NCBI GenBank assembly: GCA_947497985.1
Contig: CANMIX010000003.1
Span: 186,001 to 250,000 of the forward strand
Source of the DNA: an uncultured Paracoccaceae bacterium
GTDB lineage: Bacteria > Pseudomonadota > Alphaproteobacteria > Rhodobacterales > Rhodobacteraceae
Reading direction: 5' to 3'
Length of the DNA: 64,000 nt
The notes under the pieces were generated by a model that ran no database searches, was not told where the DNA came from, and was given only the letters and a program-made list of their open reading frames with translations. Both the position numbers and the translations under genes were made by a program. This document shows positions 2,269-41,820 of this stretch, one piece after another. Position 1 is the stretch's first letter; every line of letters begins with the position of its first letter.

Positions 2269-3211
2269 GGTCGGAAATCTCATCTATGGGAATTACGTTA
2301 AATCCGTCGAATATATGCGCCGTTTTGCCGATCTCTGCAAAGAACCAATCGCGAAAGGCCGCGATTTGTGGACGGTCCTGGCTGCTATTGATGCACATAA
2401 ATCGAAAACAGGCAGAGACTTCGATGGCGGTCGGGAACGGCGCCACCAACCGCCCGTCTTGAATGTCTTTGATGATCATAGGACGTCTGGCCAATGCTAC
2501 GCCCATCCCGGCAACGGCCGCATCGACGACATGGTTCGCTCCGGAAAAACGAGTTCCATGCTCCGGGGTGAAATCAACGCCGACGGCCTGAAACCAATCC
2601 TGCCATCGCGGTGGCCGCGGCAGAAAATGTAGCGATTCATCAATGATAAGCGGGGCGTGGGTGATTGCCTCCGGCGTGGTAAAACGTTCCGCCAATTCAG
2701 GGGTCATAACGGGTGTTAGCCAGTCATTGGGCACCTGCCGGGAATACAGCTCCTCTGGGCTGGACGTGCCAAAGCGGATTGCGACGTCCACGTCTTCGCG
2801 GTGCAGATCGACTGTGCGCAATGTGGCTGAAAAGCTCAGGTCAATATCCGGGTGTGCTTGGGCGAAATCATACAGCCGGGGTGCCAGCCATTTGGCCGTT
2901 AGGGCTGGTCCGGCCGTTACTGTCAGCGTTGTGTTGTTCTGCAAGCGTCGCGTGGCAGACCAGGCCTCGGACAAGCGCAGGAAACCATCTGCCGCACCAG
3001 GGGCCAGTATGCGGCCGGCCTCCGTAAGCTCCACTGCACGGTTCAGACGGCGAAACAGCTTGTCGCCCAGATGTTCCTCCAACGTCTTGATCTGAAATGA
3101 CAAGGCAGCTGGCGTCACGTTCAACTCATTTGCCGCCTTGGCAAAGGACATATGGCGCGCTGCTGCATCAAAGGCACGCAAAGCAGTCAACGGGGGCAGG
3201 CGGTCGGGCAT
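2261..3211 (-). CDS. LysR-family transcriptional regulator (GcvA-like)
   Basis: A 316-residue regulator. The N-terminal winged HTH covers about residues 1-65 (LTALRAFDAAARHMSFAKAA, then LNVTPAALSFQIKTLEEHLG). The rest is a LysR substrate-binding domain. The phrase TPAALSFQIKTLE is typical of the GcvA subgroup. It lies directly upstream of the exporter gene and overlaps it by eight bases, so the two form one unit. LysR proteins usually control neighbouring genes in response to a small molecule; the ligand is unknown. Upstream, on the other strand, is a small unannotated gene whose promoter must share the 110-base gap. Confidence 0.88.
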   Translation of the reverse strand: MPDRLPPLTALRAFDAAARHMSFAKAANELNVTPAALSFQIKTLEEHLGDKLFRRLNRAVELTEAGRILAPGAADGFLRLSEAWSATRRLQNNTTLTVTAGPALTAKWLAPRLYDFAQAHPDIDLSFSATLRTVDLHREDVDVAIRFGTSSPEELYSRQVPNDWLTPVMTPELAERFTTPEAITHAPLIIDESLHFLPRPPRWQDWFQAVGVDFTPEHGTRFSGANHVVDAAVAGMGVALARRPMIIKDIQDGRLVAPFPTAIEVSACFRFMCINSSQDRPQIAAFRDWFFAEIGKTAHIFDGFNVIPIDEISDHD

Positions 3212-23654: not shown

Positions 23655-26609
23655 TCAGATGCTCAGCGCTTCGTTTACAAGCGCAGCTTGTTGGGCTTTG
23701 TGTTCGCTGGCCAGGCCGGTTGCAGGCGAGGCCGATGTGGCGCGACCGACATAGGTCGGGCGCGAATGTTTCGCTTTGATCCGGGTCAGAACCCATTCGA
23801 TGTTGGGCTCAATAAAGGACCATGCACCCTGGTTCTTGGGCTCTTCCTGACACCAGACCATTTCGGCGTCTTTAAAGCGCTCAAGCTCCTTCACCAGCGA
23901 GATCGCTGGGAATGGGTAATATTGTTCGATCCGCATCAGATAGACATCATCGATGCCGCGCGCGTCACGCTCTTCCAGCAGGTCGTAATAGACCTTGCCG
24001 GAACACAGAACGACGCGTTTGATCTTGCTGTCCGCCGCCAGTTTGGTGTCGGAATTGCCGTGCTGGGCATCATCCCACAGAACCCGGTGGAAGCTGGAAC
24101 CGGTGGTAAAGTCCGCGGCGGTGCTGACCGCCAGCTTGTGGCGCAGCAGGGATTTCGGGGTCACCAGGATCAGCGGCTTACGGAAGGTCCGGTGCAGCTG
24201 ACGGCGCAGGATGTGGAAGTAGTTCGCAGGCGTTGTACAGTTCGCCACAATCCAGTTGTCCTGACCACACATCTGCAGGAAACGCTCCAGACGCGCCGAG
24301 GAGTGCTCGGGGCCTTGGCCTTCGAAACCATGTGGCAGCAGAACGGTCAGACCGGACATCCGCAGCCATTTCGATTCACCGGATGAGATGAACTGGTCGA
24401 ACATGATCTGCGCGCCGTTGGCAAAGTCACCAAACTGGGCTTCCCAAAGGGTCAGCGCGTTGGGCTCCGCCAAGGAGTAGCCATATTCAAAACCCAGAAC
24501 CGCATATTCCGACAGGGCTGAATCGATCACTTCGTATTGGGCCTGACCCGGACGAATGTTGTTGATCGGGTAATACCGCTCTTCGGTGTCTTGGTTCACG
24601 ATGCCCGAGTGACGCTGCGAGAAGGTGCCGCGTGTTGCGTCCTGACCGGACAGACGTACTGGGTATCCTTCGGTCGCCAGCGAGCCAAAGGCCATTGCTT
24701 CGCCGGTTGCCCAGTCAAACCCTTTGCCAGTTTCAAACATCTTGGCACGGGCGCCAAGGAAACGGTTGATGGTTTTGTGAACCGGATAACCTTCGGGCAG
24801 GGTGGTCAGACCACGGCCCACCTCGTCCAGTGTTTCCGGCTTGATCGCGGTTTCACCACGCTGGTAATCCGCATCCTGCTTGTCGAGATGCGACCAACGC
24901 CCATCCAGCCAATCGGCCTTGTTGGGTTTGTATTCTTTACCGGTCTCGAACTCAGCGTTCAGATGGGCCTGGAACGCCGCTTTCATGTCCTCGATCTCAC
25001 CCTCAGGGATCAGACCGTCTTTGACCAGACGTTCGGTGTACAAGGACAGGGTGGTTTTGTGACCCTTGATCTTTTTGTACATCAACGGGTTGGTGAACAT
25101 CGGCTCGTCGCCTTCGTTGTGACCAAACCGGCGGTAGCAGAAGATGTCCAGAACAACATCCTTACCAAACTTCTGGCGGAACTCGGTCGCAACCTTGGCG
25201 GCGTGTACAACCGCTTCGGGGTCGTCGCCGTTCACGTGGAAGATCGGCGCTTCCACAACCAACGCGTTGTCGGTCGGGTAAGGGCTTGAACGCGAGAAGT
25301 GCGGTGCTGTGGTGAAACCGATTTGGTTGTTCACAACGATATGGATGGTGCCGCCAGTCTTGTGACCACGCAGACCTGACAGAGCGAAACATTCCGCAAC
25401 AACACCCTGGCCTGCAAAGGCCGCGTCGCCGTGCAGCAGGATCGGCAGGACTGTGGTGCGCGCATCGTCGTTCAACTGGTCTTGCTTGGCGCGTACTTTA
25501 CCCAAAACAACCGGGTTTACCGCTTCCAGGTGCGATGGGTTGGCGGTCAATGACAGGTGAACGGTGTTCTTGTCGAACTCACGATCCGAGGAGGCACCAA
25601 GGTGGTATTTCACATCGCCAGAGCCATCAACGTCTTCAGGCTTGAACGAGCCGCCTTGGAATTCGTTGAAGATCGCGCGATACGGCTTTTGCATAACGTT
25701 TGCCAGAACCGACAGGCGGCCGCGGTGAGGCATACCGATAACGATGTCCTGAACACCCAAGGCGCCACCGCGCTTGATGATCTGTTCCATCGCCGGGATC
25801 AGGCTTTCACCGCCGTCCAGACCAAAACGTTTGGTGCCCATGTATTTGACGTGCAGGAATTTCTCGAAACCTTCGGCCTCGACCAGTTTGTTCAGGATCG
25901 CTTTGCGGCCCTCACGGGTGAACTGGATTTCCTTGCCGTACCCTTCGATGCGCTCTTTCAGCCAGGCCGATTGCTCGGGGTCGGAAATATGCATGTACTG
26001 CAACGCAAAGGTGCCACAATAGGTACGGCGAACAATATCCACGATCTGGCGCATGGATGCGACCTGCAGACCCAGAACATTGTCGATAAAGATCGGGCGA
26101 TCCATATCCGCATCGGTAAAGCCGTATGCCTTGGGGTCCAGCTCAGGATGCGGGTCACGACCGTGCAAGCCAAGCGGATCCAGATCAGCAGCCAGGTGGC
26201 CCCGGATACGGTGAGCCCGGATCAGCATCAGCGCCCGGATGGAGTCCAGAACCGCGCGTTGAACCTGCGCGTCGGAAATTTCAACACCTGCAGAGGCGGC
26301 TTTTTCCTTGATTTTCTTGCCGGCACCTTTGGCTTCAGCGGGGGCCACAGGCCATTCACCGGTCAGCGCTGCGGTCTCTTCATCTGAGGGAACCGGCGGC
26401 CAGTCAGAACGGCCCCAGGACGGCCCCTCGGCCTCTTTCTTGACGTCCATCTCGGCGTCGCCCATCTGGCGGAAGAACTCAGCCCATGCGGCGTCTACCG
26501 CGTTGGGGTCTTTCGCATACTGGGCGTAAAGCTGCTCCAGATACTCAGCGTTATGCCCCTGCATGAACGAGGAGGCATGGAAGATGTCATTTGGGCTTTG
26601 TTCGGTCAT
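23655..26609 (-). CDS. sucA: 2-oxoglutarate dehydrogenase E1
   Basis: A 984-residue thiamine-diphosphate decarboxylase of the TCA cycle, which converts 2-oxoglutarate to succinyl-CoA with SucB and LpdA. The ThDP signature [10 protein letters not shown] is present, as are [12 protein letters not shown], the active-site GHNEGDEP region and [12 protein letters not shown]. The N-terminal [19 protein letters not shown] is the E2-binding element typical of SucA. The start at 26609 is standard. A 242-base gap with hairpins separates it from sucD upstream. Confidence 0.97.
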
Positions 26610-26851: not shown

Positions 26852-27733
26852 TTAGCCGATCGCCTTCAGAACGGCTTCGCCCAGACCGGCAGGGCTGTCA
26901 GCAACAACGATACCCGCGGATTTCATCGCTTCGATCTTGTCGTCTGCGCCGCCTTTACCACCGGCAACGATCGCGCCAGCGTGGCCCATGCGGCGGCCGG
27001 GAGGGGCTGTACGGCCCGCAATGAAACCAGCAACCGGCTTCCAGCGACCTTTTTTCTTCTGCTCGGCCAGGAATTCTGCGGCTTCTTCTTCCGCGGAACC
27101 ACCGATTTCACCGATCATGATGATCGATTGGGTCTCATCATCGTCCAGGAACATGTCCAGTACGTCGATGTGCTCGGTGCCTTTGATGGGGTCGCCGCCG
27201 ATGCCAACAGCTGTCGACTGGCCCAGACCGATGTCCGCGGTTTGCTTAACCGCTTCATATGTCAGGGTGCCAGAGCGCGACACAACGCCAACCGAGCCAC
27301 GCTTGTGGATGTGACCAGGCATAATGCCGATTTTGCATGCGTCAGGGGTGATAACGCCGGGGCAGTTGGGGCCGATCAGACGCGAGGTGCTGTCTTCCAG
27401 CGCGCGCTTCACTTTCATCATGTCCAGCACAGGGATGCCTTCGGTGATGCAGACGATCAGTTCCATATTCGCGTCGATCGCTTCCAGGATCGAGTCCGCC
27501 GCGAAGGGGGGCGGAACATAGATCACGGATGCGTTGGCTTCGGTCACGTGCTTGGCTTCGTGAACGGAGTTAAAGACCGGCAGGTTCAGGTGAGTTTGGC
27601 CACCTTTGCCTGGAGTTACACCACCAACCATTTTGGTGCCGTAAGCGATGGCTTGTTCAGAGTGGAATGTGCCCTGCGAGCCGGTAAAGCCCTGACAGAT
27701 CACTTTGGTGTTTTCGTCGATGAGGACTGCCAT
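26852..27733 (-). CDS. sucD: Succinyl-CoA ligase, alpha subunit
   Basis: A 293-residue alpha subunit. CoA-binding Rossmann motif [14 protein letters not shown] near the N-terminus, the PNCPGVI loop, and the phosphorylated histidine His251 in MGHAGAIV. With SucC it interconverts succinyl-CoA and succinate with nucleotide phosphorylation. It starts at 27733, 83 bases after the sucC stop, and is co-transcribed with it. Confidence 0.97.
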
Positions 27734-27816: not shown

Positions 27817-29010
27817 TTAGCCTTTGACCGCCTTCACGATTTTCTCGGCACCGTCAGACAGGTTGTCTGCTGCGATGACGTCCAGGCCCGAAGTGTTGAT
27901 GATCTCTTTGCCGAGCTCAACATTGGTACCTTCCAGACGTACAACCAGCGGTACTTCCAGACCAACTTCTTTAACAGCCGCGATCACGCCTTCTGCGATC
28001 ACGTCGCAGCGCATGATGCCACCAAAGATGTTCACCAGAATACCTTTGACGTTGGGGTCCGAGGTGATGATTTTGAACGCCTCAGTTACTTTCTCTTTGG
28101 TAGCACCGCCACCAACGTCGAGGAAGTTTGCAGGCTCAGCACCGTAGAGTTTGATGATGTCCATAGTGGCCATCGCCAGACCCGCACCGTTCACCATGCA
28201 GCCGATTTCACCGTCGAGCGTGATGTAGTTCAGGTCGTATTTGGACGCTTCCAGCTCTTTGGGGTCTTCTTCGGTCTCGTCGCGCAGAGCGGCGACATCG
28301 GCGTGGCGGTATACCGCGTTGCCGTCAAAGCCCAGCTTGGCGTCCAGAACCTTGAGCGAACCTTCGTCGGTCACGATCAGCGGGTTGATCTCCAGCATCT
28401 CCATGTCCTTCTCAACGAAGGCTTGGTACAGCAGACCCATCAGCTTGACGCATTCTTTAACCTGTGTGCCTTCGAGGCCCAGAGAGAACGCGATGCGGCG
28501 GCCATGGTACGCTTGGTAGCCGGTTGCCGGATCAACAGAGAAAGACAGGATCTTCTCAGGGGTGCTTTCAGCAACCTCTTCGATGTCCATGCCGCCCTCT
28601 GTGGAGCACACGAAAGAAATGCGCGAGGTGACGCGGTCAACCAGCAGCGCAAGATACAGCTCGGTCTGGATGCCAGAACCGGCTTCGATGTAGATGCGGT
28701 TGACCTGCTTGCCCGCTGGGCCGGTTTGATGCGTAACCAGGGTGCGGCCCAGCATCTTCTTGGCTTCTTCGGCGGCTTCTTCAACCGACTTGGTCAGGCG
28801 TACACCGCCCTTTTCGCCCGCGTCGGCTTCCTTAAAGGAACCCTTGCCGCGACCACCTGCGTGGATCTGCGCCTTTACAACCCAAAGAGGGCCGTCCAGC
28901 TCGCCTGCTGCGGTTTTGGCGTCTTCTGCTTTGAGTACAGCGCGACCCTCAGATACTGGCGCGCCATAGCTCTTCAAAAGGGCCTTGGCCTGATATTCAT
29001 GGATGTTCAT
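27817..29010 (-). CDS. sucC: Succinyl-CoA ligase, beta subunit
   Basis: A 397-residue ATP-grasp subunit. It begins [19 protein letters not shown], the standard SucC N-terminus, so the start is 29010 rather than the longer frame to 29064. Motifs: the nucleotide-binding [21 protein letters not shown], and the [12 protein letters not shown] loop near the C-terminus. It is the first gene of the sucCD unit. Two perfect GTGATCAC palindromes 21 bp apart lie 114-142 bases upstream. Confidence 0.96.
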
Positions 29011-29448
29011 GAGAAACTGTCCCGTCTGGCTACAATTGTCCTTGGTAATTGAGCCCAGATACACCCATGGGTTAAAGGTTTATTTGACGGAGGATGCAGA
29101 AATATCGAAGATTTTCTGATTTTGTGATCACGCTATTTCGGGGTGTGATCACAAGTGCCTTTGTGCGAGGCGCTAACATGATTCGTGCAAAGTCAATATG
29201 TCTGTTTTTTGTCAGCTTCGCATGCAAATGTGCACTGCACGTCGAAAAACCCGCTTGCCACTGCCAAAAACCTACGCAACCCGGTCCGGGTCAGCATTTA
29301 GCGGCGGGTGAGTGTCCGGAACAACCTCCTACATCTGGCTTAACTCACAATGGTGAGAGCCTGGCGATCAGCCCCATTTTTAACGCTGGCTACCCCTACG
29401 AAGCCGTGCTCCTATTTCGACATTTGACACAGATTCTGGATTTGAAAT
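29011..29448. other. Divergent promoter region between sucC and the Sel1-repeat gene
   Basis: A 438-base gap with no convincing gene. It holds the paired GTGATCAC sites (29124-29131 and 29145-29152) and must contain the sucC promoter towards the minus strand and the promoter of the Cys-rich repeat protein towards the plus strand. An open frame at 29094-29516 overlaps the paired sites and the next gene and has no homology I recognise. Confidence 0.6.
29124..29152. promoter_or_regulatory. Paired GTGATCAC operators upstream of sucC
   Basis: Two perfect eight-base palindromes at 29124-29131 and 29145-29152. Their centres are exactly 21 bp (two helical turns) apart. The second sits in the fuller form TGTGATCACA. 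They lie 114-121 and 135-142 bases upstream of the sucC start codon, the same geometry as at sdhC. This suggests binding by a dimer or pair of dimers on one DNA face; the regulator is unidentified. Confidence 0.65.
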
Positions 29449-30633
29449 ATGCGTATTATCTTACTTCTTATGTTGGGGTTGTTTGCTGGCCCAGTCACCG
29501 CTCTGACGCTTGGTAATCCCGTGCACTTTTGGCTGGCGACCTATGATTGTGAACAGGGCGACGTTCAGGCATGCCTGCATATGATGCAGGAAGAAGAATT
29601 GATCGCCACCATTGCCAACCGACCCAAGGCAGAACAAGCGCTCCCCGATCTGCAGTCCGCCTGCACCTCGTCAAACGCCGAGGCCTGCGCCCGGTTGGCG
29701 GGCACGCTCATGGCCGTGTCATGGGAGAACTCGGTCGAGGCCTTCGACTTGTTTGCGCAATCTTGTGACGCAGGCTTTGGCTGGTCTTGTCTAAAGGTTG
29801 CCTATCCGATCCATGTCATCCTGGCTGAGGGGCAGGTGAGTAGTCTGCGGGAACGCGCTTCCACTTCCTATGACACATTAGCGCAACAGTGTGAGGCGGG
29901 CGATGCCTTTGCCTGCGCGTCACAGTCGCGCCTGCATCTGTCGGTGTACCTTGTCGAGCTTGAAGCCGAAACGTCCAAGGCAATCTGGTATCATCAGCTG
30001 GTCCCGCTTTGCGAACAGGACGTAGCGCGGGCCTGCGCGCAGCTTGGCTTCCTTGTGGGATCTGAAGATCATGCACCGCTCAGTGCCGGAACCGAAATCG
30101 GCAACCTCGATCTGGCGGTTGAGCTTTCGCACAAGGCCTGCGATCTCGGCAATCCTCGCGGTTGTTTTAACACCGCAGTCGATACCGAGGGTGATCAAGA
30201 GGCCAACGCCTATTTCACCCAAGCCTGTGTTCATGGGGATCTCTTGGCCTGTCAGATCCTGAATGTTGAGCCGATCTGGAACGGCCGGTCTCCGGTGGAT
30301 GTTCTGGAACAGGCCTGTCACGCCGGTGATATCTCCGCCTGTTTCACGTCGCAGGTGGCGAATGCTCCGGGGCCTGCAACGTTGCGCGACTCCATCACAG
30401 ATCAAGAACGCGCGGCGGCACAAACCTATGCCGACCAAATGGAGGTTTTGTGCTTGCAAGGCTCTGCGCCCGCCTGTGGTCAGGTTGGCGATGCCTTGTT
30501 TGACGAAGTGGTGTTCAATCCCAAGGGCGCGCGACTGGCCTTTGCCGGTTGTGGCGACGAGGACGAGTATGGATCCGACGCGCGGTCCTGCGAAATTCTA
30601 GAAGCCTATCAGGCGCTTTTGCCAACCGAATAA
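29449..30633 (+). CDS. Secreted cysteine-rich Sel1-type repeat protein
   Basis: A 394-residue protein with a signal peptide (MRIILLLMLGLFAGPVTA). It consists of about ten helical repeats of roughly 30-40 residues. Nine repeats carry a pair of cysteines spaced C-x7-C (for example CEQGDVQAC, CDAGFGWSC, CHAGDISAC), and a tenth pair has a longer spacing. C-x7-C pairs in Sel1-like repeats are the hallmark of the Helicobacter Hcp proteins, in which each pair is a disulfide. I infer a periplasmic or exported, disulfide-stapled protein-binding solenoid. No partner gene is adjacent, since both neighbours are TCA genes. Confidence 0.8.
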   Translation: MRIILLLMLGLFAGPVTALTLGNPVHFWLATYDCEQGDVQACLHMMQEEELIATIANRPKAEQALPDLQSACTSSNAEACARLAGTLMAVSWENSVEAFDLFAQSCDAGFGWSCLKVAYPIHVILAEGQVSSLRERASTSYDTLAQQCEAGDAFACASQSRLHLSVYLVELEAETSKAIWYHQLVPLCEQDVARACAQLGFLVGSEDHAPLSAGTEIGNLDLAVELSHKACDLGNPRGCFNTAVDTEGDQEANAYFTQACVHGDLLACQILNVEPIWNGRSPVDVLEQACHAGDISACFTSQVANAPGPATLRDSITDQERAAAQTYADQMEVLCLQGSAPACGQVGDALFDEVVFNPKGARLAFAGCGDEDEYGSDARSCEILEAYQALLPTE

Positions 30634-30677
30634 GGCGGCGCATCCACCGCGTCGAACCGCAGGTCGGTACAAAAAAA

Positions 30678-30703
30678 ACAAGCCCGGCGGATACCGGGCT
30701 TGT
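30678..30703 (-). terminator. Rho-independent terminator of mdh
   Basis: ACAAGCCCGG (30678-30687) pairs with CCGGGCTTGT (30694-30703) around a six-base loop. An eight-base A-run on the plus strand side (30670-30677) becomes a T-run for minus-strand transcripts, so it ends mdh, and it may also act on the convergent repeat-protein gene. Confidence 0.88.
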
Positions 30704-30726
30704 TCATCAAAATGTCGAGCCGTGGC

Positions 30727-32247
<1,521 letters not shown>

Positions 32248-32568
32248 TCAGGCGTCTTGTTCTGGATCTGGTACAACTTCGGCCAATGTCTCAAACGACT
32301 GGCCAGAGGCCACAAGGCATGTCACGCCAGTTGGCATTGTCACGGTGATCGTCCAAGTACCGGTGTCTTCGGAGGCAAATGTCTCCATCACGGTGCCTTG
32401 TTGGCCGATGCCGATACTTTTGCGGCTCTCGCCGTATTTGTTGGCCAATCGCTGCACGACAACTTCACGCGGTGCGCAGTTGCGGCTGGCCGTCTGTGCT
32501 TGAACAATGGGCGCGGTCATAACGGTGCTGACCAGCGCGGCGATGATAGTCATAGTCGTCTTCTTCAT
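32248..32568 (-). CDS. Small secreted hypothetical protein, 106 aa
   Basis: ATG at 32568 follows AAAGGG and opens MKKTTMTIIAALVSTVMTAP, a standard signal peptide cleaved near VQAQ. The mature part has two cysteines (NCAPREVVVQR and VTCLVAS) and a beta-rich C-terminal region with TWTITVTMPTG. I do not recognise a named family. The minus-strand gene lies in the gap between mdh and the CitE-family gene and shares no operon with either. A frame extending to 32700 is open but lacks a ribosome site. Confidence 0.68.
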   Translation of the reverse strand: MKKTTMTIIAALVSTVMTAPIVQAQTASRNCAPREVVVQRLANKYGESRKSIGIGQQGTVMETFASEDTGTWTITVTMPTGVTCLVASGQSFETLAEVVPDPEQDA

Positions 32569-32904
32569 GGGTTTTACCCTTTCCGGAACGGCCGCCTGCA
32601 GGAGTACTTCCACGCCCCCAATAACGCTCTGCACACAAGCCGGTTTGACGATAAGGCAGGTTTTCCTGCCAACGGATCCGCCTGCACGTGGTCGATGCAA
32701 TGAACTCGGTCCCGTATGAAAACTGTCTCAGGAAGTTCCTGCAAACTGGTTAACGCTGCGCGCGCACCTCCAAATTTGACATTGAGGACATGGAATGTGA
32801 CCGCTATTTGCACAATTTTTCTGCGGCGCAGAGAAATTTGGGTTGAAATCATATTTCTAAAATTATAGCAATCTAGCAACATTATGACTCACTGGGAGAG
32901 ATTC
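32569..32904. other. Divergent intergenic region, 336 bases
   Basis: The gap between the small secreted protein and the CitE-family gene. It contains a perfect hairpin GGCAGG-tttt-CCTGCC (32655-32670) and becomes very AT-rich towards 32800-32885, as expected for a promoter. No GTGATCAC site is present here. No gene seen. Confidence 0.5.
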
Positions 32905-33759
32905 ATGGCCTCGCGCAACCGTCCGTACCGTTCCGTTCTCTATATCCCTGGCTCCAAACCGCGGGCGCTGGACAAGGCTCGTGGCTTGCCGGTGGATGCG
33001 ATTATCTTTGATCTCGAAGATGCTGTGTCCTTGGAGGAAAAGGAAAATGCCCGCCAAACCCTGTCCCAAGCCCTGGAAGAGGGTGGCTATGGCGCGCGGG
33101 TGAAAATCGTGCGTATCAATGGCTTGGATACGGAGTGGGGGCGAGCTGATGCGGAAGCTGCTGCCAAGATGGGCTGCGACGCGGTGCTTCTGCCCAAGGT
33201 CGACCGCGCGGCGGATTTGGATGCACTTGCAGAAATCACCGGCGAAATTCCCCTTTGGGCGATGATGGAAACGCCGCGCGGCATGCTGAACGCCGCAGAG
33301 ATCGCCGCACATCCTAAATTGCAGGGTCTGGTGATGGGGACGAATGATCTGGCCAAGGAACTGCAAACTCGGTTCCGCCCCGACCGTCTGCCGCTGATGG
33401 GAGGCCTCAACATGTGCTTACTGGCCGCCAAGGCCGAGGGAAAGATTATCGTCGATGGGGTCTACAACGCATTTAAGGACGCCGAAGGTCTGGCTGCCGA
33501 ATGCGAACAGGGCCGCGATATGGGCATGGACGGCAAAACCCTGATCCACCCGGCGCAGGTTGATGTGGCCAATGCCGCCTTTGCCCCGTCTGAAGCTGAG
33601 GTCGATCTGGCCCAACGTCAGATCGCCGCCTTTGAAGAGGCCGAGGCCGCAGGGCAGGGGGTCGCCGTGGTGGATGGCAAGATCGTGGAAAACCTCCATG
33701 TTGTCACAGCCCGCGAAATTCTCGCCAAAGCGGATGCAATCGCGGCGCTAGGGGCCTAA
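32905..33759 (+). CDS. mcl2: CitE/HpcH-family CoA ester lyase, probably (3S)-malyl-CoA thioesterase
   Basis: A 284-residue TIM-barrel protein of the CitE/malyl-CoA lyase family. RSVLYIPGSKPRALDKAR and the metal-site IIFDLEDAVSLEEKE near the N-terminus are typical. In Rhodobacter sphaeroides the gene in this position, next to mesaconyl-CoA hydratase and sdh, encodes the malyl-CoA thioesterase Mcl2 of the ethylmalonyl-CoA pathway. The assignment to thioesterase rather than lyase rests on this context and length, not on residues I can point to. ATG at 32905 has GGGAGAG just upstream. NnrU, DUF1737 and the hydratase follow on the same strand. Confidence 0.75.
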   Translation: MASRNRPYRSVLYIPGSKPRALDKARGLPVDAIIFDLEDAVSLEEKENARQTLSQALEEGGYGARVKIVRINGLDTEWGRADAEAAAKMGCDAVLLPKVDRAADLDALAEITGEIPLWAMMETPRGMLNAAEIAAHPKLQGLVMGTNDLAKELQTRFRPDRLPLMGGLNMCLLAAKAEGKIIVDGVYNAFKDAEGLAAECEQGRDMGMDGKTLIHPAQVDVANAAFAPSEAEVDLAQRQIAAFEEAEAAGQGVAVVDGKIVENLHVVTAREILAKADAIAALGA

Positions 33760-33793
33760 GTGTTTAGCAGATTTACATTCTGCGGAGACTGAC

Positions 33794-34342
33794 ATGGCAC
33801 TTCTTGTCCTAGGCATCCTATTGTGGTGGGCGGCCCATCTGTTCAAACGCTTGGCTCCCGAACGGCGCGCAGCTCTTGGTGACAAAGGCAAAGGCCCGGT
33901 TGCGCTGGCGCTGTTTGCCAGCGTGATCTTGATGGTCATTGGCTATAAATGGTCCGGCGCCTTTGACCTTGGTACGCCCCCTGCGGCCTTGAAGGGCATC
34001 AACAATCTGATGGTTCTTGTGGCGTTTTATATGATGAGCCCCGCCCCAAAGAAAGGCGCGCTGCTGAATGGCATCCGCCACCCGATGCTGATGGGCTTGG
34101 GCCTCTGGGCGCTTGCGCATCTCTTGGTCAATTGGGACGCGGCTTCCTTCCTCCTGTTCGGCTCGATGCTGGTCTGGGCTGTGGTTGAGATCAAAGTGAT
34201 CAATAAGGCCGAGCCTGACTGGACCCCAGGCCCCAAAGGCACCATCGCCAAAGACGCGATGTTCTTTGTTGGCTCGATTGTCCTCGTGGGGGCCGTCGGC
34301 TATGTCCACAGCCTCATTGGCCCATCGCCTTTTGGAGGATAA
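33794..34342 (+). CDS. NnrU family membrane protein
   Basis: A 182-residue integral membrane protein with about five hydrophobic segments and the family block GIRHPMLMGLGLWALAHLL. NnrU was named for a requirement in denitrification in Rhodobacter, but the domain also occurs in genomes without denitrification and its activity is unknown. Here it lies between two ethylmalonyl-CoA genes, an arrangement I recall from related species, and probably shares their transcript. Confidence 0.85.
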   Translation: MALLVLGILLWWAAHLFKRLAPERRAALGDKGKGPVALALFASVILMVIGYKWSGAFDLGTPPAALKGINNLMVLVAFYMMSPAPKKGALLNGIRHPMLMGLGLWALAHLLVNWDAASFLLFGSMLVWAVVEIKVINKAEPDWTPGPKGTIAKDAMFFVGSIVLVGAVGYVHSLIGPSPFGG

Positions 34343-34346
34343 CAGC

Positions 34347-34550
34347 ATGAAACTTTACCGCTTTTTGAGCGAAGACGACACGTCGGCCTTTTGCCACAAG
34401 GTGACCGATGCCCTGAACAAGGGCTGGGAACTGCACGGAAGCCCAACTTATGCCTATGACGCCGCCAATGGCATCATGCGCTGTGGTCAATCCGTGGTGA
34501 AGGAGGTCGAGGGAACTTACACCCCTGACATCAAACTGGGAGAACAGTGA
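34347..34550 (+). CDS. DUF1737 protein, 67 aa
   Basis: A small protein beginning MKLYRFLSEDDTSAFCHKVT, with GWELHGSPTYAYD, the characteristic DUF1737 core. Its function is unknown. ATG at 34347 with GGAGG upstream (34334-34338). Its stop overlaps the ATG of the hydratase gene (34550), so the two are translationally coupled. Confidence 0.8.
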   Translation: MKLYRFLSEDDTSAFCHKVTDALNKGWELHGSPTYAYDAANGIMRCGQSVVKEVEGTYTPDIKLGEQ

Positions 34551-35581
34551 TGGCAAAGACCAATCCTGGCCGCTTTTTCGAAGACTATACAGTGGGCGAT
34601 GTGATCAAACACGCCGTCCCGCGCACCGTTTCGGGAGGCGAGCGCGCGCTGTATCACGCGCTCTATCCGGCCCGTCATGCGCTTTATTCTTCGGATGAAT
34701 TTGCGGCTTCGGTTGGTCTGCCAAAGGCGCCGCTGGACGATCTGGCGGCGTTTCACATCGTCTTTGGCAAGACGGTCCCGGATGTGTCGCTGAATGCGGT
34801 GGCCAATCTGGGCTACGGCGAAGGGCGCTGGATGTTGCCGGTCTATGAGGGCGACACGCTGAGGTCCGAGTCTGAGGTGATCGGGGTCAAGCAGAATTCC
34901 AACGGCAAATCCGGTGTTGTCTATGTGCGCACCTGCGGTCTGAACCAGAATGATGACGTGGTGATGGACTATGTGCGCTGGGTGATGGTGCGCAAAGGCG
35001 ATCTGGACGCGCCGGCACCTGAAACTGTGATCCCCGAGCTGAAGAAGGTGATTGACCCCGATGATCTGGCGATCCCCGCGGGGCTGGATTTCACCAATTA
35101 TGATTTTACGCTCGCTGGTGAGCCGCACCGGTGGGGCGATTATGAGGTGGGGGAGACCATCGACCATGTGGATGGTGTCACCGTGGAAGAGGCCGAACAT
35201 ATGCTCGCCACACGCCTGTGGCAGAACACCGCCAAGGTGCATTTTGACAGCACCGCGCGCCCGGATGGCACCCGGCTGATCTATGGCGGTCACGTGATTT
35301 CCATGGCGCGGGCCCTGTCTTTCAATGGTTTGGCCAATGCGCAGATGATTGTCGGTCTCAATGGTGGTGCCCATGCCAACCCCTGTCTTGCAGGAACAAC
35401 CATCCGCGCCTGGTCCGAGGTTCTGGACAAGGCCGAGACCGCAGCGCCGGGCGTTGGCGCGATCCGGCTGCGGCTGGTTGCGACTTCTGGCGGTGATGCC
35501 TTTGAGCTGAAAGGTGAGGGCGGCAAGTACCGCCCTGAGGTCTTGTTGGACCTGGATTACTGGGCATTGATGCCGATCTGA
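34550..35581 (+). CDS. mch: Mesaconyl-CoA hydratase (MaoC family)
   Basis: A 343-residue double hot-dog-fold enzyme (MaoC-like; two halves, about 1-165 and 190-343) that hydrates mesaconyl-CoA to beta-methylmalyl-CoA in the ethylmalonyl-CoA pathway. Visible: GRFFEDYTVGDVIKHA, the LYSSDEFAASVGL block and GGHVISMARALSFNG. ATG at 34550 overlaps the DUF1737 stop; a GTG at 34547 is a less likely start. Clustering with the CitE-family gene and sdh supports the pathway role. Confidence 0.9.
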   Translation: MAKTNPGRFFEDYTVGDVIKHAVPRTVSGGERALYHALYPARHALYSSDEFAASVGLPKAPLDDLAAFHIVFGKTVPDVSLNAVANLGYGEGRWMLPVYEGDTLRSESEVIGVKQNSNGKSGVVYVRTCGLNQNDDVVMDYVRWVMVRKGDLDAPAPETVIPELKKVIDPDDLAIPAGLDFTNYDFTLAGEPHRWGDYEVGETIDHVDGVTVEEAEHMLATRLWQNTAKVHFDSTARPDGTRLIYGGHVISMARALSFNGLANAQMIVGLNGGAHANPCLAGTTIRAWSEVLDKAETAAPGVGAIRLRLVATSGGDAFELKGEGGKYRPEVLLDLDYWALMPI

Positions 35582-35610
35582 TCTGCGGCGGCGCGTCATG
35601 CGTGTCGCTT

Positions 35611-35618
35611 GTGATCAC
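35611..35618. promoter_or_regulatory. Lone GTGATCAC palindrome after the hydratase gene
   Basis: A perfect copy of the eight-base palindrome, 30 bases after the hydratase stop and about 370 bases upstream of sdhC. It has no partner at 21 bp. It may be an auxiliary or distal site of the sdh control region. Confidence 0.4.
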
Positions 35619-35644
35619 GGGCAGATGAGAGGGCCAGCCTCTTC

Positions 35645-35687
35645 GCGCCTTTGGCGCTTCACCCCCGAAGTATTTTGGAAAAAATGA
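35645..35687. repeat. REP-like intergenic palindrome, copy 2
   Basis: Hairpin GCGCC-ttt-GGCGC (35645-35657) followed by CCCCCGAAGTATTTTGG (from 35662) and an A-run ending ATGAA. It shares the block and tail of the copy at 21700-21755. Confidence 0.6.
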
Positions 35688-35842
35688 AGAGGCGCGTCGG
35701 TTCTGTCGGTGTGCCTTTTGTCGTGAAGGTATCGTGAAATTTTCTTTGCATTAGGATTTTGTCGTATTTTATGACGTTCCTAGCTTATTCAGGAAGAGAT
35801 TTGAGTGATTCCTATCCGACAGAAAAACTCGGATAAATGTTT

Positions 35843-35871
35843 GTGATCACTTAATATGTTGCCGTGATCAC
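35843..35871. promoter_or_regulatory. Paired GTGATCAC operators upstream of sdhC
   Basis: Perfect palindromes at 35843-35850 and 35864-35871, 21 bp apart centre to centre. Their distances to the sdhC start (116-123 and 137-144 bases) match those of the pair at sucC within two bases. Likely operators of a shared TCA regulator. Confidence 0.65.
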
Positions 35872-35986
35872 GTTTGTAGTTTTTTAGCGCCAACAGCGGT
35901 GCTGCATCGCAAAATTTACTCCGCCTTAGCGTGACAGCAGCCAAAAAAACGGTAAAACGACGTCAGCTAACCGGAAAGGAGCCAAC

Positions 35987-36370
35987 ATGGCCGATGTGAA
36001 TCGGGGCAACCGCCCTCTGTCGCCACATATGACAATCTACCGCCCCCAGATGACCTCTGGATCGTCGATTATGGTGCGCATTACTGCAATCGCATGCCTG
36101 GTGCTGTCGCTGTTCATCGTATGGTGGCTTGTTGGCGCAACAACCTCTGAAACGGGCTTTGCAGGGATCGATGGATTTCTGACCAGCTGGTTTGGGGATC
36201 TGATGATGCTCGGCGGGACCTGGGCGCTTTGGTACCACATGCTGGGTCGTCTGCGTCACGTGATCTGGGACCTTGGTTATGGGCTGGATGTCGACTTTTC
36301 CGAAAAAATGGGTCTGGGCATGTTCATCGGCGCAACCGGCCTGACCATTATTACGATCGTTGCGGTTTAA
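35987..36370 (+). CDS. sdhC: Succinate dehydrogenase cytochrome b556 subunit
   Basis: A 127-residue membrane anchor with three hydrophobic segments. The N-terminal NRPLSPHMTIYRP is the family signature, and His84 in LWYHMLGRLRH is the probable haem b ligand. ATG at 35987 with AAGGAG upstream. It is the first gene of sdhCDA. Confidence 0.95.
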   Translation: MADVNRGNRPLSPHMTIYRPQMTSGSSIMVRITAIACLVLSLFIVWWLVGATTSETGFAGIDGFLTSWFGDLMMLGGTWALWYHMLGRLRHVIWDLGYGLDVDFSEKMGLGMFIGATGLTIITIVAV

Positions 36371-36381
36371 AGGAGCGAATG

Positions 36382-36753
36382 ATGCGTTATTTGACGGACC
36401 GTAAACGCGCGCAGGGCCTCGGGGCTTCTGGTGCTGGGACACACCACCACTGGCAGATGATGGTCTCCTCCATGCTGATGGTGCCTGCCGTACCTCTGTT
36501 CATCTTCATCGTGGGCGCTGGCATTGGCGGAACCTATGAAGAGGTTGTGGCCTATTTCGCGCGCCCTTGCACCGCGATCATCACCGGGTTGAGCCTGACC
36601 GTGATCCTCAACCACCTGAAGCATGAGGCGCATGAGGCGATCGAAGACTACATGCACGGCGTCGCTGAAAAAGTGGCTCTGGTTGCCGCAAGTGCCTTTT
36701 CCTACACGCTGATCGCTGCAGGGCTCTTTTCCCTGATCAAGATCGCGCTGTAA
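36382..36753 (+). CDS. sdhD: Succinate dehydrogenase membrane anchor subunit
   Basis: A 123-residue anchor with three membrane segments and conserved histidines in LNHLKHEAHEAIEDYMHG. The N-terminus reads MRYLTDRKRAQGLGASG, typical of alphaproteobacterial SdhD. Adjacent ATGs at 36379 and 36382 are both possible; I choose 36382 for better spacing from AGGAG at 36371. Confidence 0.92.
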   Translation: MRYLTDRKRAQGLGASGAGTHHHWQMMVSSMLMVPAVPLFIFIVGAGIGGTYEEVVAYFARPCTAIITGLSLTVILNHLKHEAHEAIEDYMHGVAEKVALVAASAFSYTLIAAGLFSLIKIAL

Positions 36754-36777
36754 CGCCTGCCATAAGGAATTCAACTG

Positions 36778-38586
36778 ATGACAGCAGCATATGAATATGA
36801 AACCCACGAATACGACGTCGTTGTCGTAGGCGCAGGTGGTGCAGGTCTGCGCGCGACCCTCGGCATGGCCGAGCAAGGTCTGCGTACGGCGTGTATCTCT
36901 AAGGTTTTTCCGACCCGTTCCCACACGGTTGCAGCGCAGGGTGGCATCGCGGCCTCTCTGTCCAACATGGGCCCTGATAACTGGCAGTGGCACATGTATG
37001 ACACCGTCAAAGGCTCTGACTGGCTGGGTGATACGGATGCGATGGAATATCTGGCCCGCGAAGCGCCCAAGGCGGTTTACGAGCTGGAGCATTACGGCGT
37101 GCCCTTCTCGCGGACTGAGGAAGGCAAGATCTACCAGCGTCCCTTTGGTGGTCACACCACCGAATTTGGCGAAGGTCCCCCCGTTCAGCGGACCTGTGCG
37201 GCGGCGGACCGGACCGGTCACGCGATCCTGCACACGCTTTATGGGCAGTCGCTGAAGAACAACGCGGAATTCTACATCGAATATTTCGCAGTTGACCTGA
37301 TCATGTCCGACGATGGTCAGTGTCAGGGTGTTGTCTGCTGGAAGCTCGACGACGGCACCATGCATGTGTTCAACGCCAAGATGGTTGTTCTGGCAACTGG
37401 TGGTTATGGCCGTGCGTATTTCTCTGCGACCTCTGCGCATACCTGCACCGGTGACGGTGGCGGCATGGTGGCCCGTGCGGGTCTGGCGCTGCAGGATATG
37501 GAATTTGTTCAGTTCCACCCAACCGGCATCTACGGTTCGGGTTGTCTGATTACCGAAGGTGCACGCGGCGAGGGTGGTTATCTGACCAACTCCGAAGGTG
37601 AGCGTTTCATGGAACGCTATGCGCCGAACTACAAAGACCTGGCACCGCGTGACTATGTTTCGCGCTCCATGACCATGGAAATCCGCGAAGGTCGTGGTGT
37701 GGGTGAAGGCGGTGATCACATTCACCTGAACCTAAGCCACCTGCCGGCCGAAGCGCTGGCGGAACGTCTGCCGGGTATCTCGGAATCGGCCAAAATCTTT
37801 GCCGGTGTTGATGTGACCAAAGAGCCGATCCCGGTTCTGCCGACGGTTCACTACAACATGGGCGGTATTCCAACCAACTATTGGGGTGAGGTTCTGAACC
37901 CAACGGCGGAAGATCCCAATGCGGTTGTTCCGGGTCTGATGGCTGCTGGTGAAGCGGGCTGTGCCTCTGTTCACGGTGCGAACCGTCTGGGCTCTAACTC
38001 CTTGATCGACTTGGTGGTCTTTGGCCGCGCGGCCTCGATCCGGGCGGGTAAAGTTGTCGGCAAAGATGCGCCGAACCCGGTTCTGAACCAGTCATCCATC
38101 GACAAAGCCTTTGATCGTTTTGACGCGTTGCGCAATGCAAACGGTTCGATGGCAACCGCTGAGCTGCGTCTGGAAATGCAGAAGACTATGCAGTCTGATG
38201 CTGCGGTGTTCCGCACCGACAAGACCCTGAAAGAGGGTGTTGAGAAGATGACCGCAATCGCGGCCAAGATGGATGACCTGAAGGTGACCGACCGCTCGCT
38301 GGTTTGGAACTCTGACCTGATGGAAACTCTGGAGCTCGACAACCTGATGCCTAACGCTTTGGCGACCATCGTCGGCGCGGAAGCGCGTAAAGAGTCCCGT
38401 GGCGCACACGCACATGAGGATTACGCGACACGTGACGATGAGAACTGGCGTATCCACTCGGTGACCCGCGTGGAAGGCAACAAGGTAGACCTGAGCTTCC
38501 GCCCAGTGGTTCTGGATCCGCTGACGAACGAGGACGAAGGCGGCATTTCGCTGGCCAAAATCGCGCCCAAGGCACGGACATTCTAA
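36778..38586 (+). CDS. sdhA: Succinate dehydrogenase flavoprotein subunit
   Basis: A 602-residue FAD subunit that oxidises succinate to fumarate. FAD fingerprint [11 protein letters not shown] near residue 17, covalent-FAD His49 in SHTVAAQGG, substrate loop [16 protein letters not shown], and C-terminal [19 protein letters not shown]. Full length. A strong terminator follows, so sdhB downstream must have its own promoter. Confidence 0.97.
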
Positions 38587-38589
38587 ACA

Positions 38590-38624
38590 AAATACCCCCT
38601 CAGCCAAAGAGCGGGGGGGTATTT
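38590..38624 (+). terminator. Terminator after sdhA
   Basis: AAATACCCCC (38590-38599) pairs with GGGGGTATTT (38615-38624) around an inner TC/GAGC region, ending in TTTT. It lies directly after the sdhA stop. It separates sdhCDA from the glycan genes and sdhB. Confidence 0.75.
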
Positions 38625-38667
38625 TGCGATTTAAACGAAACATACGGTTCCGTTTGTTCGATACGTC

Positions 38668-39774
38668 TTAAGTGATATTTGTGAGGCCTAAGTGCTCTCT
38701 TAGGCGGGACGCCGCGACATCCGTGCTAAATTCAGCCACAATTCGCGCCCGCGCAGCTTCAGCCATCTGAGCAATTTCGGCTTCGGGTTTTTGGTACAAG
38801 GCAACCAGCGCAGCGGCCATCCCTGGAACATCGTGCTCGTCTACCAAAAAACCGGTCTCTCCCTCGATCACTGCTTCTGGAATGCCGGAGTGGCGGGTGG
38901 ACACAACTGGCACAGCGGATGCCATGGCCTCTAGCACTGAAACGGGTAATCCTTCGCAATCACCGTTTGGGGCACGTACGGAATGTTGCAGGAAGACTTG
39001 GGCGTTTTGCATGAGTGACTGAACGAAATCATGGGGTTGTGAGCCATGGAAGGTAACGTGTTTGTCGAGTCCGTTGGCATCAACGTAGCTTTTGCAACTC
39101 TCTAATAGGTCCCCGTTCCCGACAAAGTCCAAATGCAGATCGGGGACATGGCGCAAGGCCAGTTCCACCGCTTTGATTGTGGACAGCGGTGATTTCTTTT
39201 CAACAAACCGCCCCACGGCCAAAAGACGTTTCGACTGTCTACGACTAGGGAGGAATTCACCAGGGTCGACGCCGCAGGCACAAACAATGATTTTGTCGCG
39301 GGGGCATCCTAATTCGACGAGGCACTCTGCAATGAACTGCGATGGCGCAATAAAGCCGTCGGCGCGCTCGAACATGTGCCGATACTTTTTTCCCTGTGAA
39401 CTATTGATGTCCTTTGTCGCGTCATAGCCATGGAAGTGGACAAAAACCCTACGATCCCGCTTTGCCAAAGGAGTAATGTATTCAGCTCCAACAGTGCCAT
39501 ATTCGACGAGAACGGTGTCGATGTCTTCACGGGTTAGAAAACGATGAATGCGTCGATTGACCTTGGACTTCGAAAGAAAGAGACGTAAGCCTTTCTTTTT
39601 TTTGGAAATTTGCGTCCACAGAGCGGGGAATGTCGAGAAGTTTTCGGAGCTTTTCTGCTCTGTTGCGATCAAGACGGTATGACCTGGTGCCAAATCATGC
39701 GCGTGTCGGCGGATAAATGTCTCTGACGGCCGGTCAAAGGATTTTGCGACAACGGCTAAGCGATTGGATGGCAT
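38668..39774 (-). CDS. GT4-family glycosyltransferase
   Basis: A 368-residue GT-B glycosyltransferase. The acceptor-side N-terminal domain has SETFIRRHAHDLAPGH. The donor-side C-terminal domain has the family motif EGLPVSVLEAMASAVPVVST, with the E-x7-E pair, and GETGFLVDEHD. It probably adds a sugar to a cell-surface polysaccharide; donor and acceptor are unknown. The frame is open to 39810, but ATG at 39774 (MPSNRLAVVAKSF) gives a natural N-terminus. It is divergent from the pyruvyl transferase gene. The region looks more AT-rich than the sdh genes on either side. Confidence 0.82.
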   Translation of the reverse strand: MPSNRLAVVAKSFDRPSETFIRRHAHDLAPGHTVLIATEQKSSENFSTFPALWTQISKKKKGLRLFLSKSKVNRRIHRFLTREDIDTVLVEYGTVGAEYITPLAKRDRRVFVHFHGYDATKDINSSQGKKYRHMFERADGFIAPSQFIAECLVELGCPRDKIIVCACGVDPGEFLPSRRQSKRLLAVGRFVEKKSPLSTIKAVELALRHVPDLHLDFVGNGDLLESCKSYVDANGLDKHVTFHGSQPHDFVQSLMQNAQVFLQHSVRAPNGDCEGLPVSVLEAMASAVPVVSTRHSGIPEAVIEGETGFLVDEHDVPGMAAALVALYQKPEAEIAQMAEAARARIVAEFSTDVAASRLREHLGLTNIT

Positions 39775-39849
39775 TGAAAACCTACCTGAGTTATTGAGAC
39801 ATGCCAACATAGCGACCGAGATAAGAGATAACTAGAGAGGAACCGGGCA

Positions 39850-40893
39850 ATGGGAAAGCTTCTGCGACAAATTTTCGGTGGAAAGGCTACCCGAAAACAG
39901 CCCCCGAGGTTCAGCAATGCAGTGCTGGCTGAGACCGACGTGCGCCATGTCCATCTTTTGGACACTGGTGTTGGCTCCGACAATGTCGGTGATGAAATCA
40001 TTATGGAGAAATGCCGTTTAATTCTAGAGCCTTATATGCAGGACTCTTATGTAACCTCATCCAGCAGCCATGATGGTTTGGGGCCGTGGAGCCGAAGTCT
40101 GATTGAAACAGCGGATCTTGTTATTTTGTTGGGGACAAACGCGCTTGCGCCGTTTGATCAGCGAACGCGGCAGCATGTTTGGACAATCCGAGATGAGGAT
40201 CTTGAACTGCTGTCCGGGAAGGTCGTGCTTTTCGGCGTCGGCGCCAACCGCTATTTTGACGAAATTGACGCTGCGCAAAAAGCTTTGTTGCACCAGATCC
40301 TAGCGACGGATTTTACCCATTCCGTGCGCGACAATTTGGGAGCGGAAATTGTCCGTGCTTGTGGACACAAAGCCATAAACACGTCATGTCCGACGCTTTG
40401 GGGTTTTGCGGATGTACGGCAGGACTTGCCGAAAGAACGCGCGGCTACGGTATGCTTCACATTAACTGCGCACAAAGCGACGGAGGATGATGTCGAGATG
40501 GTCGAAATCTTGCGCGCCGTATATGAGCGTGTCGCATTCTGGCCACAGCAACCCAGAGATTTAGCTTACTTGCGCAGCATGCCAAACGGTAGCGACGGGA
40601 TTGAAATTCTTGCACCTAATTTGTCCGCCTATGATACGTTTTTGACATCCGAGCGCCCGGATGTCGTTGGCACTCGGCTTCATGGGTCTATTAGAGGATT
40701 GCATAACAACTGCCGTGCGTTGGCCGTCGCGATTGACAATCGTGCGGATCAGATTGGGAGCGAAACCGGGCTTCCAACACTGAAGCGCGAATGGGTCAAA
40801 ACTGACTTGGAGCGTGTTGTGAAATCAGACTTCGCGGCGTTACCCAATGTACCTAAAGACGCGATTCGTACCTTCCTGATGCAGTTTGAATAA
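39850..40893 (+). CDS. Polysaccharide pyruvyl transferase family protein
   Basis: A 347-residue protein of the PS_pyruv_trans family. Visible: LLDTGVGSDNVGDEIIM near the N-terminus, GVGANRYFD in the middle, and VGTRLHGSIRGL near residue 278, the family's conserved RLHG block. Members transfer pyruvyl (or similar) groups to sugars of exported polysaccharides. It starts 75 bases from the divergent glycosyltransferase. It lies between sdhA and sdhB, which are adjacent in most bacteria. Confidence 0.8.
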   Translation: MGKLLRQIFGGKATRKQPPRFSNAVLAETDVRHVHLLDTGVGSDNVGDEIIMEKCRLILEPYMQDSYVTSSSSHDGLGPWSRSLIETADLVILLGTNALAPFDQRTRQHVWTIRDEDLELLSGKVVLFGVGANRYFDEIDAAQKALLHQILATDFTHSVRDNLGAEIVRACGHKAINTSCPTLWGFADVRQDLPKERAATVCFTLTAHKATEDDVEMVEILRAVYERVAFWPQQPRDLAYLRSMPNGSDGIEILAPNLSAYDTFLTSERPDVVGTRLHGSIRGLHNNCRALAVAIDNRADQIGSETGLPTLKREWVKTDLERVVKSDFAALPNVPKDAIRTFLMQFE

Positions 40894-40895
40894 AA

Positions 40896-40907
40896 TTGTG
40901 ATCACAA
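40896..40907. promoter_or_regulatory. TTGTGATCACAA operator candidate upstream of sdhB
   Basis: A perfect 12-base palindrome, the longest of the set, four bases after the pyruvyl transferase stop. Its GTGATCAC core (40898-40905) lies 136-143 bases upstream of the sdhB start, the same distance as the outer member of the sdhC and sucC pairs. The inner position holds no match. Confidence 0.6.
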
Positions 40908-41040: not shown

Positions 41041-41820
41041 ATGGTTGAATTTGCACTACCTAAAAATTCCCGTATGACCACGGGTAAAACGTGGCCAAAA
41101 CCGGAAGGTGCCACCAATGTTCGGAAATTCCAGATCTACCGCTGGAACCCGGATGATGGCAAAAACCCAAGCTTGGACACATATTTCCTGGATATGGACA
41201 AATGTGGCCCGATGATCTTGGACGCGCTGATCAAGATCAAAAACGAGATTGATCCGACCCTGACCTTCCGCCGCTCTTGCCGCGAAGGGATCTGTGGCTC
41301 CTGTGCGATGAACATCGACGGCATCAATACTCTGGCCTGTATTTACGGTCTGGATGAGATTGAGGGTGACGTGAAGATCTATCCGCTGCCGCATATGTCG
41401 GTGGTCAAGGATTTGATCCCGGATCTGACACACTTCTACGCCCAGCACGCGTCGATCATGCCGTGGCTGGAAACCAAGACCAACCGTCCCGCGAAAGAGT
41501 GGAAGCAGTCCATTGAGGACCGCAAAAAGCTTGATGGTCTGTATGAATGTGTGATGTGCGCCAGCTGCTCGACCTCTTGCCCGAGCTACTGGTGGAACAG
41601 CGATCGCTACCTCGGCCCAGCGGCGCTGCTGCATGCCTATCGCTGGATTATTGACAGCCGTGATGAAGCAACCGGTGAACGTCTGGACGAGTTGGAAGAT
41701 CCGTTCAAACTCTACCGCTGCCACACTATCATGAACTGTGCGAAAACCTGCCCGAAGGGTCTGAACCCGGCCAAGGCGATCGCCAACATCAAACAGATGA
41801 TGGTGGAGCGTGGGGTCTAA
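41041..41820 (+). CDS. sdhB: Succinate dehydrogenase iron-sulfur subunit
   Basis: A 259-residue electron-transfer subunit. The [2Fe-2S] cysteines are Cys80, Cys85 and Cys88 ([10 protein letters not shown]) plus Cys100. The [4Fe-4S]/[3Fe-4S] motifs are [12 protein letters not shown] and [12 protein letters not shown]. The product is standard, but the gene is separated from sdhCDA by 2.4 kb and two unrelated genes. It is therefore expected to be transcribed from its own promoter in the 147-base upstream gap. Confidence 0.97.

Follow-up and report, generated by a model that had tools for sequence, protein, structure and literature searches.

Which protein reads the short palindromes that precede several tricarboxylic acid (TCA) cycle genes in a window of 64,000 nt from an uncultured Paracoccaceae bacterium (assembly GCA_947497985.1, contig CANMIX010000003.1, positions 186,001–250,000), and to what effect? 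Eight perfect copies of the palindrome GTGATCAC lie in this window, including a pair before sucC (succinate-CoA ligase) and an equally spaced pair before sdhC (succinate dehydrogenase). Judged from sequence, the copies very probably serve to bind AkgR, a known TCA-cycle regulator, and the conserved element is the 21-bp doublet at sucC and sdhC, kept across the family. We give a probability of about 0.8 to the whole explanation, in which GTGATCAC would be the operator of an AkgR orthologue that activates from doublets, represses its own gene and has single sites of local origin.

All eight copies listed in a preliminary description of this DNA are present (29124, 29145, 31978, 35611, 35843, 35864, 37712 and 40898, that at 37712 within sdhA), and the window contains no further perfect copy, which is as far as the earlier remark that none lies near ccr, ecm, phbA or phbB was checked. 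None of 100 dinucleotide shuffles of the window gave eight copies (mean 1.1). The background assumed at first, one copy per 65 kb, was too low, as the whole genome (4.19 Mb) has 159 copies, or ~2.4 per 64 kb; against this, eight in the window corresponds to a Poisson p of 0.004. The flanked form TTGTGATCAC, with two more bases, occurs at 17 sites in the genome, six of them within the 11.8 kb that hold the eight copies (post hoc binomial p = 6e-12). A partial check on whether the motif is equally common in unrelated intergenic DNA dealt with the 11 TTGTGATCAC sites found elsewhere in the genome: nine are in open reading frames (ORFs) of at least 295 aa (unchecked as genes), another overlaps a 242-aa ORF at its end, and the last lies before a GntR gene. 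The extended form TGTGATCACA is found at five places in 4.19 Mb, three of them in the window: four are non-coding (sucC, mdh, sdhB and akgR) and one is inside coding sequence. The statement that seven of the eight window copies are non-coding depends on the ORF cut-off: it holds at 150 aa, while at 120 aa ORFs of 140 and 130 aa cover three of these copies and four of the eight are left outside. At the 120-aa cut-off, 14 of the first 15 copies listed on contig C1 are inside ORFs.

The two pairs, each with a 13-bp gap (21 bp start to start), are the only pairs in this genome with gaps of 10–16 bp. Within the genus, 17 of 18 genomes, counting this one, have a gap-13 pair (the one without it is 67% complete). 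Of 248 genera in the family, 223 have a pair with a gap of 5–35 bp, with the backwards control found in one genome. Gap lengths, counted on 75 listed forward places from 37 of the 223 positive genomes, are 13 bp in 64, 12 bp in six and other values in five. All of the 26 genomes picked as carriers of the regulator orthologue described below have a pair with a gap of 12–14, and among their 54 pairs the gap is 13 in 48, 12 in six and 14 in none.

In 97 of 106 loci examined (the window's two included) the pair precedes sucC or sdhC; sucC distances in this survey and in that of the 40 related loci are 3 nt short, the query having begun one codon early. These 97 are among 101 pairs with gaps of 12–13, the other four preceding sucA (one) or fumC (one) or lying in coding sequence (folC in L046, a surA-like gene in L199); the coding pairs are taken as chance. 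The remaining five exceptions are a gap-5 pair before akgR and four pairs (L069, L160, L058 and L070; gaps of 10, 10, 19 and 23, respectively) with no TCA gene beside them. The pair before fumC is, in genome G059 (L161:1501–1529), a third doublet of gap 13; the class II fumarase gene (1654–3027) has its likely start 124 nt downstream. Met without looking for it, this pair adds a further TCA enzyme target outside this genus. Conservation at orthologous promoters, named beforehand in the preliminary description as a condition for a shared regulator, was borne out at sucC and sdhC (97 of 101 pairs); it did not extend to mdh (0 of 38 other loci) or sdhB (1 of 39), which are taken up below.

Among relatives the doublets are tied to promoter-like elements and not to the start codon, and the tie is clearer at sdhC than at sucC. 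The start-codon distance was tried as the conserved measure and ruled out: it varies from 93 to 151 nt at sucC and from 107 to 191 nt at sdhC, and the promoter-like elements keep their offset. At sdhC, GTGA[CT] lies 58–60 nt downstream of the doublet in 20 of 32 other genera, and in these 20 the element is anywhere between 57 and 95 nt away from the start codon. It was seen at other offsets in seven (single candidates at 55, 57, 69 and 78; two candidates at 35/48, 68/79 and 57/68) and was not found in five. At sucC, TTT is enriched and position-locked 47–49 nt after the doublet (37 genomes, each from a different genus and this one among them). Summed over the 12 best columns, the information comes to 6.25 at sdhC and 8.97 at sucC, against control maxima of 2.38 and 2.04 (300 rotations), and a sliding -35/-10 score peaks at 59 at sdhC and at 48 at sucC, about one helical turn apart. 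A doublet upstream of -35, two turns long and at near-constant phase fits activation by polymerase contact; the phase reading comes from few promoters, with scattered values besides 59 ± 1 (20 of 32), and 55 is off phase. In this genome the pair spacing and start-codon distances reported earlier are correct (starts at 29010 for sucC, 35987 for sdhC and 41041 for sdhB). The fixed geometry then proposed for four TCA units is, however, common to the sucC and sdhC promoters only, as mdh, sdhB and the copy at 35611 differ.

The GntR protein RSP_0981 of Rhodobacter sphaeroides is taken here to be AkgR. Published passages tie GTGATCAC to AkgR binding sites in R. sphaeroides and name AkgR a transcriptional activator (PMC6365646), and RSP_0981 is given elsewhere as the predicted regulator of sucCD, sdh and 2-oxoglutarate dehydrogenase in the same species (PMC4344238). 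On the window's contig, ~128 kb ahead of the window, lies the gene for a GntR/FCD protein of 217 aa (C3:57228–57878, minus strand; PF00392, 1.1e-13; PF07729 (FCD), 3.6e-17). This protein is very probably the regulator of the sites and is a candidate AkgR orthologue; its gene co-occurs with the doublets and has a site of its own, and the link to AkgR comes from the published passages. Orthologues were defined by a best E ≤ 1e-50, a threshold set after seeing the scores.

A GTGATCAC site at C3:57889 lies 10 bp before the GntR/FCD gene, and the same palindrome is found 0–26 bp before the akgR start codon in 109 of 110 orthologue loci (partly overlapping sets of 30, this genome included, and 80, with some genomes counted twice). 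In 95 of the 109 precisely 18 nt separate the first base of TTGA[CT] from that of the site, so that the site covers the expected -10 region, a layout that suggests self-repression. Upstream of akgR, two Leisingera loci (L276 and L284) have an additional GTGATCAC, 52 bp from the start, and genome G204 (L166) has a pair whose gap is 5 bp.

Across 248 genera, orthologue and pair are both present in 220 and both absent in 21, with the gene only in four and the pair only in three (one-sided Fisher p = 1.5e-23, to be read with the reservation that genera are not independent). The single regulator first proposed for the TCA operons is well supported, by the published passages together with a GntR/FCD gene that co-occurs with the doublets and has its own site. 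On a SucC protein tree of 20 of the 21 genomes with neither and 43 chosen others (two rows being distant paralogues, and the bootstrap not settled), the presence label needs 11 changes, at least four of them forced by well-supported branches, so this was no single loss event. Genome G174, without the gene, has a possible doublet remnant at the usual place, with 4 of 16 bases different. The regulator gene lies 9.5–13.5 kb from a pair in six genomes (G225, G027, G260, G141, G171 and G514), which fits the R. sphaeroides gene numbers as printed (sucCD RSP_0967-6, sdh 0974-6, GntR 0981; PMC4344238), and farther away in G080 (17.5 kb), G182 (58 kb) and G144 (81 kb); here it is ~157 kb from sucC.

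Outside the family, 18 of 285 genomes of the class have some pair with a gap of 5–35, the gap being 13 at two of 19 places. No orthologue of the regulator was found in these 285 genomes at E ≤ 1e-50, so the module was not seen beyond the family in that draw. In three genomes outside the family (G410, G375 and G278; loci L201, L218 and L200), GTGATCAC pairs with gaps of 13, 16 and 14 lie 0.2–2.5 kb from GntR genes whose products are 31–36% identical to the AkgR candidate, and the operator may be common to GntR proteins of a broader clade.

In the explanation that we favour, two AkgR dimers would sit at each doublet of sucC and sdhC, probably on one helix face two turns (21 bp) apart, with the centre of the nearer dimer ~51 bp (sucC) or 63 bp (sdhC) upstream of the -35-like element, from where the dimers would activate the TCA operons through contact with RNA polymerase. 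At akgR one dimer on the -10 region would shut off its own gene, giving negative feedback. Two further promoters here, those of mdh and sdhB, have single sites missing from relatives, and the one at sdhB lies in DNA not present between sdhA and sdhB of the nearest relative. The sequences show the sites, their conservation and spacing, the association with promoter elements, the akgR site and the co-occurrence; we infer binding here, the dimer pairs, the polymerase contact and the direction of control, and take the AkgR link and the label ‘activator’ from the printed passages. A bolder version, put forward tentatively at a little under even odds, is a rigid activation module across the family, at near-whole turns from -35 (48 at sucC; 59, with single cases of 48, 69 and 78–79, at sdhC) and combined with self-repression, which new promoters join by gaining a site, as at sdhB, where inserted genes separate sdhB from sdhCDA and the new DNA in front of sdhB has the operator.

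Besides the late threshold and the dependence between genera, several points tell against this explanation. Three genomes have a pair without the orthologue: G036 (91% complete), G113 (77%) and G131 (100%, 320 contigs). Four have the orthologue without a pair, namely G057, with a one-mismatch doublet at the usual place, G139 and G172, with no sucC match, and G164, with only a 50% identical one. The best -35/-10 score is at the common offset in only 8 of 37 sucC promoters, and 12 of 32 sdhC promoters lack GTGA[CT] at 58–60 nt. Strict sigma-70 consensus scans do not find the assigned -35/-10 pairs at sucC or sdhC, so these labels derive from comparison. The genome has 33 GntR matches (31 above cut-off), so that a paralogue could share the site. 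No perfect site was found within 450 bp of mdh in 38 other loci, and the sdhB site recurs in one of 39 (L241).

These last two counts bear on the alternative that survives best, namely that the single copies at mdh, sdhB and 35611 are chance or relics, not working operators, a view that we consider quite possible while leaning the other way. The 40 related loci had been chosen for having doublets, so that the mdh and sdhB counts are independent evidence and those for sucC and sdhC are not. Besides the near-absence at mdh and sdhB, a third site before sdhC is found in one other locus only (L244), the copy at 35611 not being conserved. On the other side, the mdh and sdhB copies both carry the rare form TGTGATCACA, and the nearest relative has GTAATCAC, a one-mismatch form, at the aligned mdh place. 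The mdh and sdhB copies look recent and local to this lineage; were they relics, this would still be compatible with AkgR acting at sucC and sdhC. In the window sdhB lies 2.45 kb (2454 bp) after sdhA, behind glycosyltransferase and pyruvyl transferase genes, whereas the sdhA–sdhB gap is 12 bp in the nearest relative and 10 to 3572 bp across relatives. A blastn comparison with the 40 related loci matched neither the two insert genes nor the 160 bp upstream of sdhB. An sdhB site is present in two loci, both among the three with the widest gaps (2454 and 3572 bp; the remaining locus, at 2742 bp, is without a site), which suggests that the operator matters once sdhB loses the operon promoter, two cases being no proof. 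The sdhA–sdhB junction may be a recurrent insertion point.

A repressing role of this regulator at the sucC and sdhC doublets in place of activation, or one whose sign changes with its ligand, is unlikely. The akgR operator over its own -10 region is indeed placed for repression, and many GntR proteins are repressors, but the doublets are well upstream of the -35-like elements, where a bound protein is not expected to block polymerase. AkgR is also called a transcriptional activator in the passages cited above (PMC6365646).

Ownership of the sites by another GntR paralogue, by CceR or by a third factor is less probable still. The number of GntR matches in the genome would allow it, as would the GntR genes near similar pairs outside the family; however, among the 17 TTGTGATCAC sites a single one has a listed GntR domain no more than 1 kb away, and this domain belongs to the akgR candidate (counted for the TTGTGATCAC form only), and the orthologue itself co-occurs with the doublets. 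For CceR (LacI, RSP_1663), which the preliminary description had named beside AkgR, mdh and sdh are predicted targets in R. sphaeroides and [A/G/T]GTT N6-8 AAC[A/C/T] is the predicted motif (PMC4344238). This motif has no match upstream of sucC, mdh, sdhC and sdhB (four stretches of 186–411 bp each), and CceR was rejected on these stretches; AkgR fits. That the copies are chance or codon-driven palindromes, as 159 genome copies and their frequency in long ORFs might suggest, has next to no likelihood and is already refuted for sucC and sdhC, a chance origin of the doublets being ruled out by the shuffles, conservation across the family, the spacing, the 97 of 101 pairs before sucC or sdhC, the akgR site and the co-occurrence.

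The triple of regulator, site and targets is already known in a relative, and its architecture is sharper here. As printed for R. sphaeroides, the AkgR regulon has the same palindrome, the same suc, sdh and 2-oxoglutarate dehydrogenase targets and a GntR-family regulator (GntR plus FCD here); the published passages do not give the doublet, the 21-bp spacing, the promoter relation or the akgR site, all seen here, and the mdh and sdhB sites here are local to this lineage. PS417_07240 of Pseudomonas simiae (deoxyribonate cluster) is gntR-like, with GTGATCAC at -47 to -40 of its own gene, and is 32% identical to AkgR, but belongs to a catabolic cluster, not the TCA cycle, with a single palindrome described in the passages available (PMC6365646). 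CceR is likewise predicted for mdh and sdh, with a different motif. Literature searches, which did not include the 2015 AkgR paper, found among the matches listed no description of the doublet, the promoter relation, the akgR site or the sdhB case, and no paper on GntR control of TCA, suc or sdh genes or on tandem GntR sites. Class I activators such as CRP have upstream sites on one helix face at a -35 distance in helical turns; they are of an unrelated family, and here there are two tandem sites with a presumed polymerase contact. For these bacteria the TCA cycle is a central pathway; its direct control by AkgR is tied to one model species in the sources consulted. The doublet would offer a simple signature for reading the AkgR regulon in most genera, pointing to the regulator gene in each genome, and a system for testing how spacing and helical phase set activation versus repression by one protein.

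Table 1 Operator candidates, promoter-like elements and genes in the window (window positions).
Feature	Position	Strand	Basis
Putative sucC double operator, two GTGATCAC, 13-bp gap	29124..29152	-	pattern + relatives
sucC -35-like TTTAAC, 47 nt after doublet	29071..29076	-	TTT position-lock
sucC, succinate-CoA ligase beta subunit	27817..29010	-	NCBIfam NF001913
sucD, succinate-CoA ligase alpha subunit	26852..27733	-	NF004230
sucA, 2-oxoglutarate dehydrogenase E1	23655..26609	-	NF006914
Single GTGATCAC, 288 bp before mdh, lineage-specific	31978..31985	.	site count
mdh, malate dehydrogenase	30727..31689	-	NF004863
Lone GTGATCAC, 368 bp before sdhC, just after mesaconyl-CoA hydratase-like gene (34547-35581)	35611..35618	.	
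Putative sdhC double operator, two GTGATCAC, 13-bp gap	35843..35871	+	pattern + relatives
sdhC -35-like GTGACA, 59 nt after doublet	35931..35936	+	comparison
sdhC -10 candidate TAAAAC	35953-35958	+	comparison
sdhC, sdhD, sdhA	35987..38586	+	
Glycosyltransferase (-) and polysaccharide pyruvyl transferase (+), between sdhA and sdhB	38668..40893		Pfam
Putative single operator (core of 12-bp palindrome TTGTGATCACAA), with the last gene of the locus-specific insert 5 bp upstream and sdhB 135 bp downstream	40898..40905	.	
sdhB, succinate dehydrogenase iron-sulfur subunit	41041..41820	+	NF004616

Elsewhere in the window, positions 29449–30633, with no Pfam match at E 0.001, encode a predicted cysteine-rich protein of 394 aa, transcribed away from sucC.

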